This document shows positions 44,313 to 53,108 of a stretch of DNA of 64,000 nt, piece after piece (position 1 is the first letter of the stretch; each line of letters starts with the position of its first letter). The stretch is from Zunongwangia mangrovi. Its GTDB lineage: Bacteria > Bacteroidota > Bacteroidia > Flavobacteriales > Flavobacteriaceae. The position numbers and the translations under genes were made by a program. The stretch spans positions 372,001 to 436,000 of the forward strand of contig NZ_FOKV01000002.1 of the NCBI RefSeq assembly GCF_900112105.1, read 5' to 3'. Below the pieces are notes generated by a model, which searched no databases, had not been told where the DNA came from, and was given only the letters and a program-made list of their open reading frames with translations.

Positions 44313-44726
44313 CTAATGTGGTAGTTTCTTACGAAGTAATCCATATATAAAAGTTCCCAACATGGCACCGGCAAAAACCACTAATATTGGCCAATAACCT
44401 GCGCCTGCTAAAACATAGATTGGTCCCGGGCAAGCTCCTGCTAATGCCCAACCTAATCCAAAAATGATTCCTCCAAACATGTAGCGGCTAAAGCTTTTAT
44501 CCTTCGGAACAAAATTTATAGGTTGCCCAAAAAAGGACTTTAAATTCTTTTTTTTGATAACCTGAACCCCAATCACTCCTAAAAATAAAGCTGAACCAAT
44601 GATCCCGTACATATGGAACGATTGGAATTTAAACATCTCGTAGATTCTAAACCACGAAGCAGCTTCAGACTTAAACATTACGATCCCAAAAAATATTCCT
44701 ATCACTAAAAATCCTATTTGTCTCAT
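44313..44726 (-). CDS. YeeE/YedE-type sulfur transporter half (DUF6691-like)
   Basis: The 137-residue protein has four membrane helices, with GGIIFGLGWALAGACPGPIY as the family signature; the conserved Cys in GACPGP is thought to handle sulfur species. It is the second half of a split transporter, beginning 3 nt after the larger half. Homologous pairs (PmpA/PmpB-like) are linked to uptake of thiosulfate or similar reduced sulfur compounds. The operon is preceded by a GTAAC-N4-GTTAC inverted repeat. Confidence 0.87.
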   Translation of the reverse strand: MRQIGFLVIGIFFGIVMFKSEAASWFRIYEMFKFQSFHMYGIIGSALFLGVIGVQVIKKKNLKSFFGQPINFVPKDKSFSRYMFGGIIFGLGWALAGACPGPIYVLAGAGYWPILVVFAGAMLGTFIYGLLRKKLPH

Positions 44727-44729
44727 TGT

Positions 44730-45290
44730 TTAAAATATTAATGGGTATAAAAAATGAATCATTAACAATCCACCAATAAAAAAGCCAATTACGGCAATTA
44801 ATGATGGTAATTGTAGGTTACTTAATCCTGAAATTGCATGCCCAGAAGTACATCCACCGGCGTATCTTGCTCCAAATCCAATTAAAATCCCGCCTATTAA
44901 AAGCACTAAAAGCGTAAGCGGTTCAGAAAAAACATTTGTCGAAAATAATTCGGTTGGCAAATAGGCTTTCCCTGCACTTTCAAACCCAAGATTGTTTAGA
45001 TCCTGAATCGTTTCTGAAGAAATTGCAACGGTAGTTGGATCTTCGCTCAAATAAAATTGTGCGATAAAACCACCAATTACGGCACCTAGCAATACCAGTA
45101 AATTCCATTGCTGTGCTCTCCAATCGAAATTAAAAAAATCTGCTTTTTTATCTGCACCACACATGCTACACATGGTTCGCAGGTTGGAAGACATTCCAAA
45201 CTGACGCCCCATAAAAATGAGTAAAAACATGGTAAATGCGATCAATGGCCCGGAAACATACCACGGCCAGGGTTCTAATATCCAATTCAT
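44730..45290 (-). CDS. YeeE/YedE-type sulfur transporter half
   Basis: The ATG at 45290 is chosen (MNWILEPWPWYVSG); a longer frame to 45341 would run across the upstream operator. The roughly 186-residue protein has about five helices, a cytoplasmic cysteine loop (TMCSMCGADKKADFF) and the signature GFGARYAGGCTSGHAISG. It should form a membrane transporter with the following DUF6691-type half. The 5' spacer of about 60 nt carries a perfect inverted repeat that is also found upstream of the desaturase/MBL-rhodanese operon. Confidence 0.88.
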   Translation of the reverse strand: MNWILEPWPWYVSGPLIAFTMFLLIFMGRQFGMSSNLRTMCSMCGADKKADFFNFDWRAQQWNLLVLLGAVIGGFIAQFYLSEDPTTVAISSETIQDLNNLGFESAGKAYLPTELFSTNVFSEPLTLLVLLIGGILIGFGARYAGGCTSGHAISGLSNLQLPSLIAVIGFFIGGLLMIHFLYPLIF

Positions 45291-45333
45291 AGTCTTCTTT
45301 TGTGCAAATAAACCAGAAATTAAGAAAACGGCC

Positions 45334-45349
45334 TGTAACAATGGTTACA
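45334..45349 (-). promoter_or_regulatory. Inverted-repeat operator TGTAAC-N4-GTTACA
   Basis: A perfect 6-bp dyad with a 4-nt spacer (AATG) lies 43 nt upstream of the YeeE/YedE start and abuts the stop codon of the upstream dehydrogenase gene. Its geometry matches CRP/FNR-superfamily sites. A near copy is at 52935-52948. Confidence 0.65.
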
Positions 45350-46252
45350 TTAATTTTCCTGAAGGTATTCTTTAAAGTTTTTTACTACTTTTTCTGATAA
45401 TCTTTCCTGAGTTTTAAGCGTCCAGCCGGCACTTTTCTTCCCAATCACCACATTCTTTCTTTCATGAATATCCTGCGGAACATCTTTTTTGGCGTCCCCA
45501 TCGAAAATCGCAAAATTTGAGGTCGATTTTATCCAATTTCGAAAAGCTTTTAAATCGAATGGCATTCCCAGCGAAGTATTGATAAAAATTTTCCCGTTAC
45601 CGAATTTCTCAAAATGTTCTGGCTGAAGAATTTCCAGGTTTTTGGGAAGATGAATCGAGATCACATCTACCGTTTCCAAAAGTTCATCAAGCTCTAAATA
45701 GTCCAGTCCTTTTTGCTCGTATTGAAGTTTTCTGCTTCTGCTGAAGTAATAAAGATCGGCTCCAAAAGGCAATAAACAATCGGCTAAAAGCTGCCCGGTA
45801 ACACCCAAACCAATGATCCCAATTTTAAGATCGGTAAGTTCATGCGGAATTTCCTTCCACTGTTTTTCAGCATAACCGTGGATAAGCATGATCAATTCTG
45901 AAATCACAAATTCTGCCACTCCGGGATCGCCATAATCAAAAATTCCGGTGACTGTAATTCCCTTTTCGCGTGCATAATTTACCGCTACATTGGCTGAAGC
46001 ATCATCAAACAAACTACAGCACATCCCGATATACTTAAGATTAGGACATTCTTGAATAATTTCTTCTGTGATCTGCGTTTTCCAGGAAACAAAGATCACC
46101 TCAGCATCACCAATTCTATTTAAAATTTCCTCTTTGGTTTCCGGGAAATCATCAGGATGAATTATTTTTTCTTCGGAATATTCCTGAAGCTGCGCAATAG
46201 CTTCATCATTCATTTTTGTATAATCGACACAGGCGATTTTGTTGAATTTCAT
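45350..46252 (-). CDS. D-2-hydroxyacid dehydrogenase-like protein lacking canonical catalytic residues
   Basis: The 300-residue protein has the two-domain fold of the family, with an NAD-binding GIIGLGVTGQLLADCLLPFG at about residues 157-176 and a DVISIHLP strand. The usual catalytic Arg (in N-x-S-R-G) is replaced in FINTSLGMPFD. Where family members have a Glu-containing segment there is FAIFDGDAKKDV, and where the catalytic His would follow there is KKSAGWT. It may be inactive, use different residues or bind NAD for another purpose. It lies between the carboxylase genes and the YeeE/YedE operator. Confidence 0.8.
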   Translation of the reverse strand: MKFNKIACVDYTKMNDEAIAQLQEYSEEKIIHPDDFPETKEEILNRIGDAEVIFVSWKTQITEEIIQECPNLKYIGMCCSLFDDASANVAVNYAREKGITVTGIFDYGDPGVAEFVISELIMLIHGYAEKQWKEIPHELTDLKIGIIGLGVTGQLLADCLLPFGADLYYFSRSRKLQYEQKGLDYLELDELLETVDVISIHLPKNLEILQPEHFEKFGNGKIFINTSLGMPFDLKAFRNWIKSTSNFAIFDGDAKKDVPQDIHERKNVVIGKKSAGWTLKTQERLSEKVVKNFKEYLQEN

Positions 46253-46364
46253 CTTTAATTTTTGGGAAACATAAGAAAAAATCGAAGAATTTTAGCCATT
46301 AGCACTCAGCTTTTGGGGAATAGTATGGAATTAATTATACGCGATTTTTGTTAATTAAGCTTTC

Positions 46365-46450
46365 GTCATTCCGGACTTGATCCGGAATCTCATATCTTAT
46401 TGAATATCCAAGCTTATTAGTGTGAGATCCTGAATCAAGTTCAGGATGAC
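46365..46450. repeat. Imperfect inverted-repeat element (GTCATTCCGGA type)
   Basis: Left arm 46365-46392 begins GTCATTCCGGACTTGATCC and right arm 46423-46450 ends AAGTTCAGGATGAC. The right arm reversed matches the left at most positions. Each arm also contains its own short palindrome. A related element is at 54149-54253. Confidence 0.75.
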
Positions 46451-46534
46451 TGTTCTTTTTAAAAGCATTTATCGATACTATTTCAACGCTACCGCTATAA
46501 AATCACTCGAATTGAAGATTCAACATAATTTGAA

Positions 46535-46563
46535 AAGAGATCTCTCCACAAGGTCGAGATGAC
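46535..46563. repeat. Short GAGATGAC-type dispersed repeat
   Basis: GAGATCTCTCCACAAGGTCG followed by AGATGAC resembles a widespread bacterial intergenic word family and ends in the same ATGAC word as the neighbouring inverted repeat. Confidence 0.45.
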
Positions 46564-46592
46564 ACATAACCTTTGCACATTCCACATTTAGA

Positions 46593-46627
46593 ATTCAGCA
46601 TTCAGCATACAGCATACAGCATACAGC
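46593..46627. repeat. Five-copy heptamer tandem repeat
   Basis: Five head-to-tail units of 7 nt read ATTCAGC, ATTCAGC, ATACAGC, ATACAGC, ATACAGC, with a partial sixth. It lies in the 451-nt spacer between the dehydrogenase and carboxylase genes and has the character of a slippage-prone microsatellite. Confidence 0.8.
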
Positions 46628-46703
46628 ATTCAAAATAAAAAAATCTATATTCTAAAAGCGCAGCGCTCTAATCTCTAAAATCTAAAAAGTAGCGGTCTAA
46701 AGT

Positions 46704-48248
46704 CTACAAAGGAATATTCCCATGTTTTCGGTCTGGTCTTAGCACACTTTTATTTTCGAGCATACTAAAAGCTTTCAGTAATTTTCTACGAGTGTCTTTC
46801 GGCATAATTACCTCATCAATAAATCCGCGTTGTGCGGCTTCAAAAGGATTGGCAAACTTTTCGGCATACTCCGCTTCTTTCTCAGCTAGTTTTTGTTCAG
46901 GATCATCAGCTTCTTTAATTTCTTTTCTAAATATAATTTCACTTGCTCCTTTGGCTCCCATAACAGCAATTTCCGCACTTGGCCAGGCAAAATTCATATC
47001 AGCTCCAATATGCTTACTATTCATAACATCGTACGCACCACCATAAGCTTTTCGGGTAATCACCGTCACCTTTGGCACCGTAGCTTCACTCAGCGCATAC
47101 AATAACTTCGCACCGTGAAGAATGATCCCGTTCCATTCCTGATCTGTTCCCGGCAAGAATCCAGGTACATCGACTAAAACCAATAGCGGAATATTAAAAC
47201 AATCGCAAAAACGTGTAAATCGAGCCGCTTTTTTAGAACTATCTACATCTAAAACTCCGGCTAAACTCATTGGCTGATTGGCAACAATACCAATACTTCT
47301 CCCGCCCAATCGTGCAAAACCAACGATGATATTGTCGGCATAATTCTTATGAATTTCAAAGAAAGAATCGGCATCGATAATTCCCTCAATAACCGAATGC
47401 ATATCGTAAGGTTTATTGGAAGTATCTGGAATAATTGTGTCCAATTTTTCACGAATCTCATCCTGTGGCTCGAAAGCTAATTTTTCGGTTTTCTGTTTAT
47501 TGTTTTGAGGCATATAGCTAATCAGCTTTTTTATATCCTCTAAACAGCTAATATCGTTGTTGGCTGTTAAATGAGTTACGCCAGATTTTGTAGAATGCGT
47601 GCTCGCACCGCCCAATTCTTCTGAAGTTACTGTTTCATTTGTTACCGTTTTAACCACATTTGGACCTGTCACGAACATATAACTGGTATCTTCTACCATG
47701 ATCGTAAAATCGGTCATTGCAGGAGAATAAACCGCTCCACCAGCACAAGGCCCCATAATTGCTGAAATCTGCGGAATCACTCCTGAAGCTTTGACATTGC
47801 GATGAAAAATATCGGCATAACCACCAAGCGATTTTACACCTTCCTGAATCCGTGCTCCGCCAGAATCATTTAAACCGATCATCGGGGCGCCGGTTTTTAC
47901 CGCGAGATCCATTACTTTACAAATCTTTTCGGCATGCGTTTCTGAAAGTGCGCCACCAAAAACCGTAAAATCCTGAGCAAAAACATAGACCAATCTTCCG
48001 TTTATCGTTCCATAACCTGTAACAACGCCATCGCCATAAAATTTCTGATCCTGCATTCCAAAATCGGTAGTACGATGCGTTACCAAAATCCCTATTTCTT
48101 CAAAAGATCCTTCGTCCAATAAATAATCAATTCGTTCTCTTGCGGTAAGCTTTTTCTTTTCGTGCTGCTTTGCAATACGCTTTTCACCACCGCCAAGATG
48201 CGCCTGTTCTATTTTTTGATTTAATTGCTCTATATTTTTCTTACTCAT
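46704..48248 (-). CDS. pccB: Acyl-CoA (propionyl-CoA-type) carboxylase, carboxyltransferase subunit
   Basis: The 514-residue protein is a full-length biotin-dependent carboxyltransferase with crotonase-like halves: [53 protein letters not shown] and, in the second half, [14 protein letters not shown] and [13 protein letters not shown]. It transfers carboxyl from biotin to an acyl-CoA, most likely propionyl-CoA, feeding methylmalonyl-CoA. It is the third gene of a minus-strand set with biotin carboxylase and biotin carrier; a 231-nt spacer with a repeat separates it from the second. Confidence 0.92.
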
Positions 48249-48344
48249 TGGTTTTAATTTTTAGCCGTCAGCTTTTAGCTTTCTGACCTGCTTTCGCTTT
48301 TAAATTTAAATTGATCTTGGTTTAAGATTTCTCCGTTTCAATTT

Positions 48345-48378
48345 GTCTCACCTGCCAGCGAGGCTGGGTGGAAATGAC
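48345..48378. repeat. CCTGCCAG-type palindromic repeat
   Basis: GTCTCACCTGCCAGCGAGG followed by CTGGGTGGAAATGAC lies in the pccB upstream spacer. Its core is similar, reversed, to an insert inside the left arm of the 54149-54253 element. Confidence 0.5.
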
Positions 48379-48479
48379 AATACTCTGCTACTCAATTTCG
48401 AATTCTTAGAATTTTCAAATCGACTAATCAGCACAAATTCAAATCAACCTTTACTGAAAACTGTTACTGCCCACTGATC

Positions 48480-49934
48480 TTACTCTCTTGCTTCAGTAAT
48501 CGGTAATCTTAGTTTTTTCTTATCTTTTAAATATTGCTTCAAGGCAACCAAAGCGGCCAACTTCGATTCTTCTTCAATTTCATTTTGCAGCTTTTCTGGG
48601 GAATAATATTTCTTCACAAAATGGGTATCAAAATTTCCTGAAGTAAAGGCTTCATGTTCAAAAACGAACTTCCCGAAAGTCAGCGTTGTAGAAACACCTT
48701 CTACATGGTAATCATCGATCGCTTTGATCATTAACTGTATCGCTTCTTCTCTATTCTTTCCGTAGGTAATTAACTTTGCCAGCATAGGATCGTAATAGAT
48801 CGGCACGTCCATCCCTTCTTCAAATCCATTGTCTACCCGAATTTTCTCTCCTGAAGGAATTTTATATTTCTCCAATTTCCCAACGCTTGGCAGAAAATTA
48901 TCCATAGGATCTTCAGCATAAACCCGCAACTCCAGTGCATGACCGGTAATTTTTAAATCATCCTGTTTAATACTGAGCTCCTCTCCCTTTGCAATTTTAA
49001 TTTGTTCTTCAACAAGATCGATTCCCGTGATATATTCGGTTACGGGATGCTCTACCTGAAGTCTTGTATTCATTTCTAAAAAATAAAAGTTTCGATTTTC
49101 ATCGAATAAGAACTCCACCGTACCGGCGCCTACATAATCGCAGGCTTCAGCAACCCGAACGGCTGCTTTTCCCATTTCGTCCCTTAATTTTTCGTCTAAA
49201 ACTATCGATGGCGCTTCCTCGATCACTTTTTGGTGACGACGTTGTACCGAGCATTCACGCTCAAATAAATGAAGTGTATTTCCGTGCGCATCGGCTAAAA
49301 CCTGAATCTCGATATGACGCGGAGAAGCCACATATTTTTCAATAAAAACTGATCCATCTCCAAAGGCAGATTCGGCTTCACTAATGGCACGTTTCATCTG
49401 GTCTTCCAGATCTTTTTCCTGCTCTACCACTCGCATTCCTTTTCCTCCACCACCGGCAGAAGCTTTTATTAAAATAGGATAACCAATCTCTGTAGCGATC
49501 TTTTTAGCTTCTGCGGTATCTGTAATCGCTTCGTCAATCCCGGGAACCATAGGAATATCATATTTCTTCACCGCATCTTTGGCAGCGAGCTTACTTCCCA
49601 TGATGCGGATGGCTTTACTACGCGGACCAATAAACGTTATTCCAGCTTTCTCAACAGCTTCAGCAAAACCAGCATTTTCGCTTAGAAATCCGTATCCGGG
49701 ATGAATTCCGTCGACATTTAATTCTATACAAATTTCAATGATCTTATCTCCTAACAAATAGGATTGATTAGACGGTGCCGGCCCAACGCAAACCGCTTCA
49801 TCAGCAAATTTTACGTTCGGTGCATTTCTATCGGCTTCAGAAAAAATAGCAACGGTTTTAATGCCCATTTTCTGAATAGTTTTTAGTACTCGCAGGGCAA
49901 TTTCACCACGGTTAGCTACTAATATTTTCTTCAT
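48480..49934 (-). CDS. accC: Biotin carboxylase subunit of acyl-CoA carboxylase
   Basis: The 484-residue protein has the ATP-grasp biotin carboxylase fold: KKILVANRGEIALRVLKT, GIHPGYGFLSENAGFAEAVE, the glycine-rich loop KASAGGGGKGMRVV, ERECSVQRRHQKVIEEAPS and the active-site EMNTRLQVEHPVTE. It carboxylates biotin on the carrier protein with bicarbonate and ATP. It begins 27 nt after the carrier gene. It could equally be called pccA; the separate carrier gene favours an AccC-type description. Confidence 0.94.
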   Translation of the reverse strand: MKKILVANRGEIALRVLKTIQKMGIKTVAIFSEADRNAPNVKFADEAVCVGPAPSNQSYLLGDKIIEICIELNVDGIHPGYGFLSENAGFAEAVEKAGITFIGPRSKAIRIMGSKLAAKDAVKKYDIPMVPGIDEAITDTAEAKKIATEIGYPILIKASAGGGGKGMRVVEQEKDLEDQMKRAISEAESAFGDGSVFIEKYVASPRHIEIQVLADAHGNTLHLFERECSVQRRHQKVIEEAPSIVLDEKLRDEMGKAAVRVAEACDYVGAGTVEFLFDENRNFYFLEMNTRLQVEHPVTEYITGIDLVEEQIKIAKGEELSIKQDDLKITGHALELRVYAEDPMDNFLPSVGKLEKYKIPSGEKIRVDNGFEEGMDVPIYYDPMLAKLITYGKNREEAIQLMIKAIDDYHVEGVSTTLTFGKFVFEHEAFTSGNFDTHFVKKYYSPEKLQNEIEEESKLAALVALKQYLKDKKKLRLPITEARE

Positions 49935-49961
49935 TTTTTACAAATTTTAGCGGAATAAGGA

Positions 49962-50447
49962 TTATTCCATTTCAATAAGCAACTGGTTTTTCTCTACGGT
50001 TTCGCCTTTTTTGATCTGGATACTTTTTACCACTCCGTCTCGTGGTGCGGTAATCGTATTCTCCATTTTCATGGCTTCTAAAACCAGTAAATAATCGCCT
50101 TCTTTTACCGCTGTGCCTTCTTCGACATTCACTTCCAGAATTAATCCTGGCATTGGTGCTTTAATATCGTTGATCAATTGCGCAGAGCCTAGGGAAAGTC
50201 CCATCTTTTCAATCAAAAGATCTAAATCGTTTGCGATATTAATATTGTAAATATTGGAGTTGATTTTTATCGAATATTGCCTTTTTAGAAAATCACTCTT
50301 TTCTACGGAAGCTTTAAAGGATTTATGCTCGTGAAGTATATGAAAATCGGCATTTCCAATGGCTTGAATATCTAAATCTAAGATTTGGTCTTCAGTGAAC
50401 TCAAATTCTGATGTATCATTCACTTTAACCTTAAACTTTTTCTCCAT
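49962..50447 (-). CDS. Biotin carboxyl carrier protein
   Basis: The 161-residue protein has a C-terminal biotinyl domain with the biotinylation site EAMKMENTITAPRDG (Lys in MKM) inside the barrel-sandwich IKAPMPGLILEVNVEEG ... GETVEKNQLLIEME. The N-terminal 85 residues are specific to this carboxylase type. It is the first gene of the carboxylase set and would shuttle carboxybiotin between the two enzymes. The spacer upstream is A/T-rich, with a TATATTTA word as a weak -7 candidate. Confidence 0.93.
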   Translation of the reverse strand: MEKKFKVKVNDTSEFEFTEDQILDLDIQAIGNADFHILHEHKSFKASVEKSDFLKRQYSIKINSNIYNINIANDLDLLIEKMGLSLGSAQLINDIKAPMPGLILEVNVEEGTAVKEGDYLLVLEAMKMENTITAPRDGVVKSIQIKKGETVEKNQLLIEME

Positions 50448-50581
50448 ATTTGATCAATTTTTGCTCATTTTAAGCAACAAGCTTTGTAAATATAGAAAAT
50501 TAATAAGGCTTTTACTGAAGGATTAATAATTTATTAATATTCTAAAAATTATGCTCCGAAACATCGAATTTCAGCATAAAG

Positions 50582-50613
50582 AAAAATCCCAACTTCACTT
50601 GGAAATTGGGATT
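50582..50613 (-). terminator. Intrinsic terminator after the MBL/rhodanese gene
   Basis: On the minus strand, AATCCCAA (50613-50606) and TTGGGATT (50592-50585) form an 8-bp stem followed by TTTC. It lies 36 nt past the stop at 50649. Confidence 0.7.
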
Positions 50614-50648
50614 GACTCAAAATTTTATAAAAGAAAATCTTTAAATAT

Positions 50649-51986
50649 CTATTTAAAATCGTTCACGGCATCACTTAAATCAAAAACTTTAATTCCGTTT
50701 AACTGCTTATCTACAATGCTACTTCCGGCTGCAGATCGATAGCCGCCGGCACAATGCACAACGACTGGTTTATCTGTTGGGATTTCGTCTGTACGATCTC
50801 TTAATTCATTTAGTGGAATGGCAATCGCACTTTCAAAAAACTTCCCTTCTTCAACTTCAGAAGTATTTCTAATATCCACAATTGTATATGCTGAAGGATT
50901 TTCTTTAAAATGATCTACCTCTAAAAATTCGGTAGAACCTTCAAGATCTTCAGCAACAGTAATGATCGCTTTTAGATGTTTTTCGTAACCAATTTTTGCA
51001 ACACGCTCCAACAAAGCATCAATATCTTCTACTGAAGGCGCCACTAAATAAAAAGCTTCTTCTGGCTGAATGATCGCTCCTAACCAGGTTTCGAACTTTT
51101 GCTTAGGCGATGTCGCCATAATATTAATGCTTCCCGGCAAATGTGACTTTTTAAAATCGTCTCCGCCTCTTGTATCTACGATCGTTAGACCTTCTTCAAC
51201 TTCATCTACATTTAGAAAAACCGGAACATTATATTTTGCTTTCTGAACGTTTAAAGCTCCAGCTTTGTTGATATCTACATCAAACCCAAAATAAGATGGT
51301 ATAAACGGCTGATCTTTTAAAATCTCATCTACAAACTCATCCTCGGTTTGCTCTTTAAAAGCCCAATTTCCCATACGTTCATTTCCTAAAGTACTGGAAG
51401 AATCGCTGCTCATATTTTTACCACATAACGAACCTGCTCCATGCGCCGGATACACCAAAGAATCATCTGGCAGATCGTTAAATTTGGTTTGCATGGTGTT
51501 ATACATTTGCTTGGCAAGATCGATACGCTTGGCTTTCATGTTCCCGGCTTTTTCACGTAAATCTGGCCGACCAACATTTCCAATAAATAAAGTATCACCG
51601 GTAAAAAGAGCTGTTTCGTTTTCTTCTTTTGCTACTACCGTGATACTATCTGGACTGTGCCCCGGGGTGTTTAAAGCGCTAAAAGTTACCTTTCCTAATT
51701 CGAAAGTATCACCTTCATCAAAACTTTTATGATCATAATCTGCGCCTACCAATTTGCTCACAAAAATAGTTGCAGCAGTTTCTTCATGAATTTGTAAATG
51801 ACTGCTTATAAAATCGGCATGAGGATGTGTTTCGAAAACCGCTACGATCTTTGCATTATTTTCTTCAGCAAACTTATAATACGGCATAGGATTTCTAGAT
51901 GGATCTACCAGCGCCATTTCACCTTCACTTACAATTGCATACGAATAATGGGCTAAAGCCTCGTCATTAAACTGTTCTATGATCAT
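50649..51986 (-). CDS. Persulfide-dioxygenase-like MBL protein with two rhodanese domains
   Basis: The 445-residue protein has an N-terminal metallo-beta-lactamase domain (ETHPHADFISSHL, LNTPGHSPDSI, FTGDTLFIGNVGRPDL, VYPAHGAGSLCG) as in ETHE1/CstB-like persulfide dioxygenases. Two rhodanese domains follow. The first (TIVDTRGGDDFKKSHLPGSI) has no catalytic Cys, while the second ends in VVHCAGGYRSAAGSS with an active-site loop. The MBL motif reads HxHxDF where DH is common. The expected role is oxidation and transfer of sulfane sulfur in sulfide detoxification. It follows the sterol-desaturase-like gene by 15 nt. Confidence 0.88.
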   Translation of the reverse strand: MIIEQFNDEALAHYSYAIVSEGEMALVDPSRNPMPYYKFAEENNAKIVAVFETHPHADFISSHLQIHEETAATIFVSKLVGADYDHKSFDEGDTFELGKVTFSALNTPGHSPDSITVVAKEENETALFTGDTLFIGNVGRPDLREKAGNMKAKRIDLAKQMYNTMQTKFNDLPDDSLVYPAHGAGSLCGKNMSSDSSSTLGNERMGNWAFKEQTEDEFVDEILKDQPFIPSYFGFDVDINKAGALNVQKAKYNVPVFLNVDEVEEGLTIVDTRGGDDFKKSHLPGSINIMATSPKQKFETWLGAIIQPEEAFYLVAPSVEDIDALLERVAKIGYEKHLKAIITVAEDLEGSTEFLEVDHFKENPSAYTIVDIRNTSEVEEGKFFESAIAIPLNELRDRTDEIPTDKPVVVHCAGGYRSAAGSSIVDKQLNGIKVFDLSDAVNDFK

Positions 51987-52001
51987 TTCTCTTTTCTTTT
52001 A

Positions 52002-52886
52002 TTAGTTTGTTTCTCTTTTAATTTTAAACGGAAAAGTCATTTGTTCTTTAAAGCTTCTAGGAAAATCTTCGTCTCCTTCAAAACCAAGTTCTATACTTTT
52101 TCCGCTCTTCGGAATATATGCTGTTCTAAAAATATAATCCCAAATACTTAAACTTAAGCCGAAATTCATTCCGTAGGGATGCGAATCGGGTAATGCTTTG
52201 GAGTGATGCCAGATATGCATTTTTGGATTATTGAAAATATAACCTAAAAATCCATAATTCCAGCCCACGTTTGCGTGGTTTAAATGCCCAATTAATACAC
52301 TAAACATATGAACGATAAAAAACTCCTGAATCCCAAAACCTATCATCGCCAATGGGATATACTGTGCGGTTTTGTAAACAATAGTTTCCATAAAATGAAA
52401 CCTAAACTGCGCCGCAAATCCCATTTCTTTTACGCTATGATGCACTTTATGAAATTGCCATAACCAGGGACGTTTATGTAGCTGCCGATGAACATTCCAC
52501 TGAATAAAATCGGCTATAACGAACATGATTAGCAATTGCCCCCAAACTGGCAGATTTTGGATATTTATGGCTACTATATTTTCGATCCCAAAAAGTCCCA
52601 AGAAATCATTGAAAAGCGCTACACCAATATTCGATAAGGCATTGTAACCAATCAACGAAAACAGGAAAAAATTGAATAAAATATAAAAACCATCCAGCCA
52701 AAAACCTTTTCTAAAGATCGGCTGATCTTTACGCCAGGGTAATACAATTTCTAAAATCCAGACAAATAACGAAATCGCTATAAGCCAGTAAAAATAATTG
52801 GTCCAGGAAGGATTGGTAATCTCCTGCACCAGGTAATTAAAATACCCGATAAATGAATCCTGAATTATTATTAAATATTTGTCCAT
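52002..52886 (-). CDS. Sterol desaturase / fatty acid hydroxylase superfamily protein
   Basis: The ATG at 52886 (MDKYLIIIQDSF) is used in place of a TTG 21 nt upstream. The roughly 294-residue protein has four to five membrane helices and the histidine clusters of the di-iron family: NVHRQLHKRPWLWQFHKVHHS, GHLNHANVGW and KMHIWHHSKALPDSHP. It probably hydroxylates or desaturates a lipid. It is co-transcribed with the persulfide-dioxygenase-like gene and shares an operator-like dyad with the YeeE/YedE operon, an unexpected link of lipid oxidation with sulfur metabolism. Confidence 0.88.
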   Translation of the reverse strand: MDKYLIIIQDSFIGYFNYLVQEITNPSWTNYFYWLIAISLFVWILEIVLPWRKDQPIFRKGFWLDGFYILFNFFLFSLIGYNALSNIGVALFNDFLGLFGIENIVAINIQNLPVWGQLLIMFVIADFIQWNVHRQLHKRPWLWQFHKVHHSVKEMGFAAQFRFHFMETIVYKTAQYIPLAMIGFGIQEFFIVHMFSVLIGHLNHANVGWNYGFLGYIFNNPKMHIWHHSKALPDSHPYGMNFGLSLSIWDYIFRTAYIPKSGKSIELGFEGDEDFPRSFKEQMTFPFKIKRETN

Positions 52887-52934
52887 TTTTAAATTATTCC
52901 GCAGCAAAAGTAACCAAAAGCTAAAGCAAGGCCA

Positions 52935-52948
52935 GTAACTTTTGTTAC
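52935..52948 (-). promoter_or_regulatory. Inverted-repeat operator GTAAC-N4-GTTAC
   Basis: A perfect 5-bp dyad with spacer TTTT lies 48 nt upstream of the sterol-desaturase-like start. It matches the site at 45334-45349 in half-site, spacing and distance to the gene. Confidence 0.6.
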
Positions 52949-53108
52949 AGTCTTCCCATTCAAAGTCTTACTAAATGATTAAAGAATCTTGAATATCCTT
53001 TAACAATCGCAAACCTTTAAGTATAAATATAAATGTTATAAGGCGTTAAACTAAGCATGAGTAATTAAATACTTTATTATTTTCAGGCTAAAATCAGAAA
53101 AAGAAAAT

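Follow-up and report, generated by a model that had tools for sequence, protein, structure and literature searches.

Why do two sulfur-linked operons of Zunongwangia mangrovi carry almost the same short inverted repeat at almost the same distance from their start codons? Both operons lie in a 64,000-nt stretch of contig NZ_FOKV01000002.1 (C21:372001-436000 of the assembly), referred to here as the window. One copy of the dyad GTAACNNNNGTTAC precedes a YeeE/YedE transporter pair, and the other precedes an operon for an FA_hydroxylase protein ('sterol desaturase') and a metallo-beta-lactamase (MBL)-fold protein with rhodanese domains. A reading of the window from its letters alone (the sequence-only reading) had suggested one sulfur- or redox-responsive regulator of CRP/FNR type for both operons. 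A single CRP/FNR-type regulator is supported by the same dyad, promoter geometry and regulator neighbourhood across the Flavobacteriaceae. The dyads are very probably operators of one class II activator of this family, encoded beyond the right edge of the window, which would govern four sulfur operons. Comparisons between genomes support the operator and its place in the promoter, the set of genes governed, its assignment to this regulator and the inclusion of FA_hydroxylase in the set.

Dyads upstream of four sulfur operons

The window holds the two copies of the dyad and no other, even when one mismatch is allowed. Their distances to the ATG codons are as first read, 43 nt for YeeE (ATG at 45290) and 48 nt for FA_hydroxylase (ATG at 52886), and Pfam upholds the gene names (Sulf_transp/DUF6691, FA_hydroxylase, Lactamase_B plus Rhodanese). 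A scan of the complete genome, which the sequence-only reading had proposed as a check, returned eight copies. Four are inside open reading frames (on C8, C12 and, twice, C25) and four are intergenic. All four intergenic copies lie upstream of sulfur genes, namely yeeE/yedE, the FA_hydroxylase and MBL-rhodanese genes, a TauE/SafE gene (C21:438391) and a second MBL-rhodanese gene (C22), the names of the dyad-bearing genes again being backed by Pfam. The many intergenic copies in front of unrelated genes that would have refuted the idea were not seen. Metal-site motifs and rhodanese-loop motifs with the active-site cysteine are present in both MBL-rhodaneses. The best solved relatives of both are 3tp9 and 3r2u, and the window copy also matches BpPRF and human ETHE1. 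By MBL fold and rhodanese cysteine loop the two are predicted persulfide dioxygenase-rhodaneses (CstB/PRF-like); with the NCBIfam Blh dioxygenase model they score 46 and 55.1 bits, below its cut-off of 625.

Conservation in relatives, another check proposed at the outset, was found across Flavobacteriaceae regulator loci and within the genus. Two sets of loci around homologues of the candidate regulator were compared, a first set of 40 and a second, mostly flavobacterial, of the best 80 of 580 confirmed; the sets share at least three contigs (of 356572, 54425 and 69841 bases) and many species are close, so that the counts are not independent. Exact dyads number 52 in the first set and 193 in the second, 245 in total. 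Control half-sites at the same spacing gave, in the first and second set, 0 and 1 (GTTAC), 3 and 2 (CATTG), 0 and 0 (TAGAC), 7 and 11 (ATGAC) and 1 and 2 (AGTAC), and GTAAC half-sites at nine other spacings gave 0-1 and 0-5. A dyad is present in 28/40 and 75/80 loci, TauE, persulfide dioxygenase (PDO) or YeeE genes in 33/40 and 74/80, and both in 26/40 and 70/80.

A gene starts within 350 nt of 232 of the 245 dyads, and 13 have none. The nearest downstream gene is TauE for 53, MBL-rhodanese for 57, YeeE for 20, FA_hydroxylase for 5, CRP for 5, CydA for 1 and another gene for 91. The last fall into 23 clusters, and Pfam was run on representatives of ten: rhodanese (20 genes), Tll0287-like/cytochrome protein (12), Pyr_redox_2 (9), outer-membrane efflux protein (7), DUF983 (6), HMA (5), SulP (4), molybdopterin oxidoreductase (3), peroxiredoxin (3) and one cluster of 3 without a family. 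The Pyr_redox_2 cluster is read as SQR-like, and several of these genes would fit sulfide-to-sulfite/sulfate handling. An SQR-like protein of a relative (L061) had no match in the Z. mangrovi genome, a search that lacked a positive control and is therefore uninformative. A phosphoribosyltransferase-like cluster of four (labelled by eye) also occurs among the other dyad genes.

Promoter geometry and the candidate regulator

CRP and FNR act as class II activators from an operator centred at -41.5. Read towards the gene, the sigma-A box TAnnTTTG starts exactly 29 nt past the dyad centre in 115 of the 232 dyads, with at most 3 at any other offset; within 27-33 nt it is found at 118 dyads, while shuffled downstream sequence gave a mean of 1.5 and a maximum of 7. 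The box stands at +29 in 50/53 TauE, 25/50 PDO470, 5/7 PDO445, 2/5 FA_hydroxylase and 35/91 other promoters. Since TAnnTTTG lies at -12 to -5 in Flavobacterium psychrophilum (PMC9723704), the dyad centre would fall at -41.5 from the predicted start. By this predicted position the dyad would be the site of a class II activator.

The four promoters of Z. mangrovi follow the same arrangement. The box is exact at FA_hydroxylase (TACTTTTG) and TauE (TATTTTTG) and has one mismatch at YeeE (TTTATTTG) and the second MBL-rhodanese (TATTTTTA). The composite of dyad, 22 nt and TAnnTTTG gave 11 matches in the genome with up to two mismatches (control, 8), and at zero or one mismatch only the four sulfur promoters. 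Across the genus, the composite is exact at the FA_hydroxylase and TauE promoters in 6/6 genomes and has one mismatch at YeeE in 6/6 and at the second MBL-rhodanese in 5/6; the gene itself was checked in 6/6, 6/6, 5/6 and 3/5 of these, respectively, and the rest were assigned by near-identical sequence.

The sequence-only reading had placed no regulator gene in the window, and indeed none of the eight PF00027 matches of the genome lies there; other regulator families were not searched. One of the eight, a CRP/FNR-family gene on the minus strand, starts 3.1 kb past the right window edge and lies near the TauE dyad. Its product carries PF00027 cNMP_binding (43.7 bits, cut-off 27.5) and PF13545 HTH_Crp_2 (37.9, cut-off 27), and a search of the PDB with its predicted model returned generic CRP/FNR matches, so that domains and fold both place it in the CRP/FNR superfamily. 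It falls short of the cyclic AMP (cAMP)-responsive CRP model PRK11753 (54.2 bits, cut-off 266) and of the FNR model (18.6, cut-off 228), and has no N-terminal cysteine cluster. Four of the other seven PF00027 proteins could be aligned to the regulator profile; all four lack both the C-x5-CC loop and the SRVVVSR helix. At E 1e-40 the regulator is matched in 47 of the 60 genera compared within the family. Judged by regulator identity, the window comes from a marine flavobacterium close to Salinimicrobium and Salegentibacter. Between it and the TauE dyad lies only a toxin-antitoxin-like pair (labelled by eye). This arrangement suggests that the pair was inserted into the regulator-dyad unit and split it, because the other five genomes of the genus have the regulator right before tauE, with just the dyad in between. 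Genes labelled by eye as cydAB (bd oxidase) follow tauE, and cydA does so in 6/6 genomes of the genus.

Regulator and dyad also go together where the regulator varies. Among the 13 genomes without a match at E 1e-40, 11 carry an MBL-rhodanese of the 470 type, and none of the 11 has an exact dyad within 1.5 kb; in regulator loci the figure is 69/74, a fraction biased by the choice of genes for their nearness to the regulator. E. coli CRP shares with the regulator the fold, the helix-turn-helix, the half-site register TGTnA-N6-TnACA and the class II position. Its recognition helix is SRETVGR, whereas the regulator has SRVVVSR, which agrees with the replacement of G by A in the half-site. As the helix reads, position 183 of the regulator aligns with Glu181 of CRP, and CRP mutants with Val or Leu at 181 reportedly tolerate A:T where TGTGA and TGTAA differ. 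In 40 phylum-wide loci, one of which holds both kinds, Val183 regulators are accompanied by 10 dyads in 9/18 loci and Glu183 regulators by 1 dyad in 21 loci. Descent may explain part of this split, the Glu183 kind being remoter kin. A search of the 21 Glu183 loci for dyads of 5-mers (spacings 2, 4 and 6) gave none that rises above A/T-rich ones, ACTTC reaching 8 at spacing 4. Five Glu183 regulators (L269, L270, L273, L274, L275) have a CxxxxxC loop and lie near MBL-rhodanese genes, three of them also near TauE, with no GTAAC dyads; these loci can be read as a sister system with another operator.

From these comparisons we infer that a dimer of the regulator would bind TGTAAC-N4-GTTACA at -41.5, next to TAnnTTTG, and would switch on yeeE/yedE, FA_hydroxylase with its dioxygenase/rhodanese, tauE/safE and the second dioxygenase/rhodanese. 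In relatives the same dyad also stands in front of genes for single-domain rhodaneses, SQR-like proteins, SulP and molybdopterin oxidoreductases.

Besides the bias just mentioned, several observations weigh against this interpretation. The genome count of eight is no higher than that of the reversed control pattern (8), and two copies in the window are unremarkable, since shuffles average 0.79 and hold at least two in 21 of 100. What carries the case is therefore where the copies lie, how well they are conserved and how the promoters are built, rather than how many there are. Raw motif counts were dropped as proof, and a degenerate search with TGTAACNNNNGTTACA at up to two mismatches was uninformative (175 matches, control 181). 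The strict box is uneven, being found at 1/20 YeeE, 0/5 CRP, 0/1 CydA and 30/57 MBL-rhodanese promoters; YeeE promoters mostly depart from it. Non-query genes follow 91 of the 245 dyads, and some of these genes have no evident tie to sulfur (outer-membrane efflux protein, DUF983, HMA). Sulfur genes occur without an exact dyad in 11 of 120 loci, of which eight have a one-change site near the sulfur gene, two a two-change site and one (L092) neither, and 7/120 loci have dyads without a labelled TauE, PDO or YeeE gene. A one-mismatch site is present in 3 of the 11 regulator-free comparison loci, in two of them inside the MBL-rhodanese gene.

Table. Features of the two dyad-bearing operons and of the regulator locus (window positions unless a contig or locus is named)
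Feature	Position	Strand	Basis or remark
YeeE/YedE operon operator TGTAAC-N4-GTTACA (TGTAACAATGGTTACA)	45334..45349 (dyad 45335-45348)	(-)	Pattern search and composite-promoter scan; predicted centre about -41.5
Predicted sigma-A box TTTATTTG	45305..45312	(-)	1 mismatch to TAnnTTTG; 29 nt past dyad centre
YeeE/YedE-family sulfur transport protein, first half (Sulf_transp)	44730..45290	(-)	Pfam
YeeE/YedE-family partner (DUF6691/Sulf_transp)	44313..44726	(-)	Pfam
FA_hydroxylase/MBL-rhodanese operon operator, coding strand TGTAAC-AAAA-GTTACT	52934..52949 (dyad 52935-52948)	(-)	
Predicted sigma-A box TACTTTTG	52905..52912	(-)	29 nt past dyad centre
FA_hydroxylase ('sterol desaturase'), membrane di-iron oxygenase	52002..52886	(-)	HRQLH, HKVHH, HIWHH boxes
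MBL-fold persulfide-dioxygenase-like protein with rhodanese domains	50649..51986	(-)	HCAGGYRS loop in last domain
CRP/FNR-family gene, candidate regulator	C21:439134-439766	(-)	PF00027, PF13545
RelE/ParE-like toxin gene and 74-aa partner	L017:4491-5033 = C21:438491-439033		By eye; outside window
cydAB	L017:973-3317		By eye

Some further sites were noted in the relatives. A DUF983-type gene stands behind a dyad in six regulator loci (L099:9870-10262, L126, L130, L148, L173, L178), in several of them directly upstream of the regulator, and another DUF983-like gene in the genus also has a near-site (L321:1563-1973). Four genus genomes (L318, L327, G152:C1:3920435, G100:C1:3248359) have a near-site GTAGC-N4-GTTAC, or one change off, with TATATTTG at class II distance; it is not among the listed matches of the Z. 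mangrovi genome. In L318 and L327 the genes behind it, labelled by eye, are an OsmC-like one of 140 aa and one resembling methionine synthase. A 27-kb region, G152:C1:1932993-1959701, contains many exact and near dyads, some back-to-back, and a second copy of the regulator, and can be read as an enlarged sulfur island.

The cysteine loop and its possible signal

The only cysteines of the regulator are C77, C83 and C84, in the loop where CRP binds cAMP. The full triad is retained by 115 of 119 orthologues, the conservation expected of a thiol-based persulfide sensor. L091, L092 and L100 keep C77 alone, their loci having yeeE/yedE as sole labelled genes, and L075 keeps C77 and C83. Per- or polysulfide may be sensed through this triad. 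In FisR of Cupriavidus, an activator that responds to reactive sulfur species, sulfane sulfur joins three conserved cysteines by di- and tetrasulfide cross-links (PMC9774590); a per-/polysulfide cross-link is proposed here because the FisR cysteines behave so, although FisR belongs to an unrelated protein family. The predicted model is weakest at residues 71-90, the cysteine loop (pLDDT, the predicted local distance difference test, 65-66), and the geometry of the cysteines is therefore left unclaimed.

In the remoter Bacteroidota C77 is present in 40/40 while C83 and C84 vary, and regulators with one cysteine (L279, L283, L291) also have PDO, TauE or YeeE genes in their loci, so that the triad is not strictly required. 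Sulfur genes are nearby in 8/11 loci with all three cysteines, 5/8 with the first two and 7/21 with one, a suggestive tie between the full loop and a sulfur neighbourhood. Persulfide sensing by the triad is the least secure step, and we give it about an even chance.

The alternative that survives best retains regulon and regulator and changes the signal to oxygen, peroxide, a metal or an Fe-S cluster on the three cysteines, in the manner of FNR. A cluster or metal could be bound by three cysteines, tauE is followed by cydAB near the regulator, and three peroxiredoxin genes stand behind dyads in relatives. However, the labelled targets are mostly genes for handling sulfide or persulfide, no exact dyad directly serves cydAB in the Z. 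mangrovi genome, the cysteines form no N-terminal cluster, and the FNR model scores low. Such a signal is considered unlikely.

The hydroxylase and the known systems

Whether the hydroxylase shares in the response, as the sequence-only reading suggested, can be judged from its homologues. FA_hydroxylase is matched in 111 of 149 genomes, and the loci of the best match in the 30 top genomes were compared. Eleven homologues are 72-100% identical; six have the dyad directly upstream, four stand in a regulator-tauE-FA_hydroxylase gene row with the dyad upstream of tauE, one has none, and PDO445 is nearby in ten. The 19 homologues at 57-65% identity have neither dyad nor PDO445 (0 and 0). Four genomes (G012, G073, G087, G101) hold both a close and a remoter copy, the loci of the remoter copies lying outside this comparison. 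The claim stands in that 10/11 close homologues and 0/19 remoter ones belong to dyad-bearing gene sets. A second lineage, about 48% identical, occurs in 9 of 120 regulator loci, with a dyad 55-68 nt from the start in three (two facing yeeE across the dyad) and 159 nt in one; four adjoin molybdopterin oxidoreductase genes (that of L159 labelled by eye). In the hydroxylase tree, the 'dyad' label on nine far rows denotes any dyad in the locus. Members of the second lineage in L069, L136, L145, L149, L159, L174 and L178 lie beside molybdopterin oxidoreductase genes or face yeeE or FAD-protein genes across dyads.

Alternatively, FA_hydroxylase could be an operon passenger with no part in the sulfur response, and no biochemical link between the two is known to us. 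The protein retains its three histidine boxes, and its substrate is a guess; we speculate that it might be a sulfonolipid built from sulfite released by the dioxygenase. The split between close and remoter homologues, the same dioxygenase near 10/11 of the former, and the second lineage with its three dyads near the start argue against a passenger, which we find rather improbable.

The CstR regulon has a similar gene set, TauE and the CstB dioxygenase-rhodanese, and 3r2u, presumably CstB itself, comes second among the solved relatives of each of the two dioxygenases. CstR of Staphylococcus aureus, a CsoR-family protein, likewise senses persulfide by cysteine but is an all-helical tetrameric repressor (PMC9774590), whereas the regulator here has a CRP fold and is a presumed activator. 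SqrR, BigR, sHdrR and SoxR also respond to sulfane sulfur, but are ArsR-family repressors, SqrR and BigR using two cysteines (PMC9774590); SoxR works with YeeE-like SoxT transporters (PMC11582611, PMC12423496). By analogy, the dyad could be a repressor site released on persulfide, as with CstR and SqrR/BigR. The persulfide sensors CstR and SqrR are repressors, though FisR is an activator (PMC9774590). A predicted centre at -41.5, a short way before a well-conserved box at -12 to -5 and at a single offset in half the dyads, makes this very improbable.

Similarly improbable is that the regulator is a nitric-oxide regulator of HcpR2 type. HcpR2 is also a CRP/FNR protein, its published consensus is identical, GTAACnnnnGTTAC (Rodionov et al. 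2005, PMC1274295), and HcpR of P. gingivalis (9day), which binds heme (PMC12750200), ranks 27 among the structure matches. In most Clostridium, Bacteroides, Thermotogales and Treponema, HcpR2 goes with hcp, which it regulates (PMC1274295), whereas the Z. mangrovi genome has no Prismane/hcp gene (PF03063; the same search was positive in 5 of 14 control genomes), its four targets are sulfur genes and its regulator has the three-cysteine loop. The comparison covered the operator consensus and hcp in this genome; the HcpR2 sequences themselves and hcp in the loci of relatives lay outside it. On the absence of hcp the HcpR identity was rejected. Chance palindromes, for which the shuffle and control counts would speak, are refuted by conservation (6/6 genus genomes), position and promoter.

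The operator sequence is already published, for HcpR2. Regulators of sulfide or persulfide named in a review are CstR, SqrR, BigR, PigS, FisR, OxyR, LasR and OhrR (PMC9774590), and further ones in literature excerpts are MarR-family, PerR and AdpA; none of these belongs to the CRP/FNR family, and no word starting with 'bacteroid' occurs in the main text of the review. No CRP/FNR persulfide regulator appeared among the titles listed in the literature searches, one of which the slash spelling 'Crp/Fnr' may escape.

Our analysis suggests, as a tentative possibility, that in a family of class II CRP/FNR activators of Bacteroidota the cAMP pocket has become a sensor in which a cysteine triad detects per- and polysulfide, and that this family commands sulfide oxidation together with membrane-lipid hydroxylation. 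If this is true, lipid remodelling, perhaps of sulfite-derived sulfonolipids, would be part of the bacterial sulfide response. The Bacteroidota gain a candidate regulator gene, its operator, a promoter geometry and a target list, for which one strain suffices for testing. The half-site change from TGTGA to TGTAA is suggested to go with one residue of the recognition helix, and a membrane hydroxylase without an assigned role is tied to sulfur handling.

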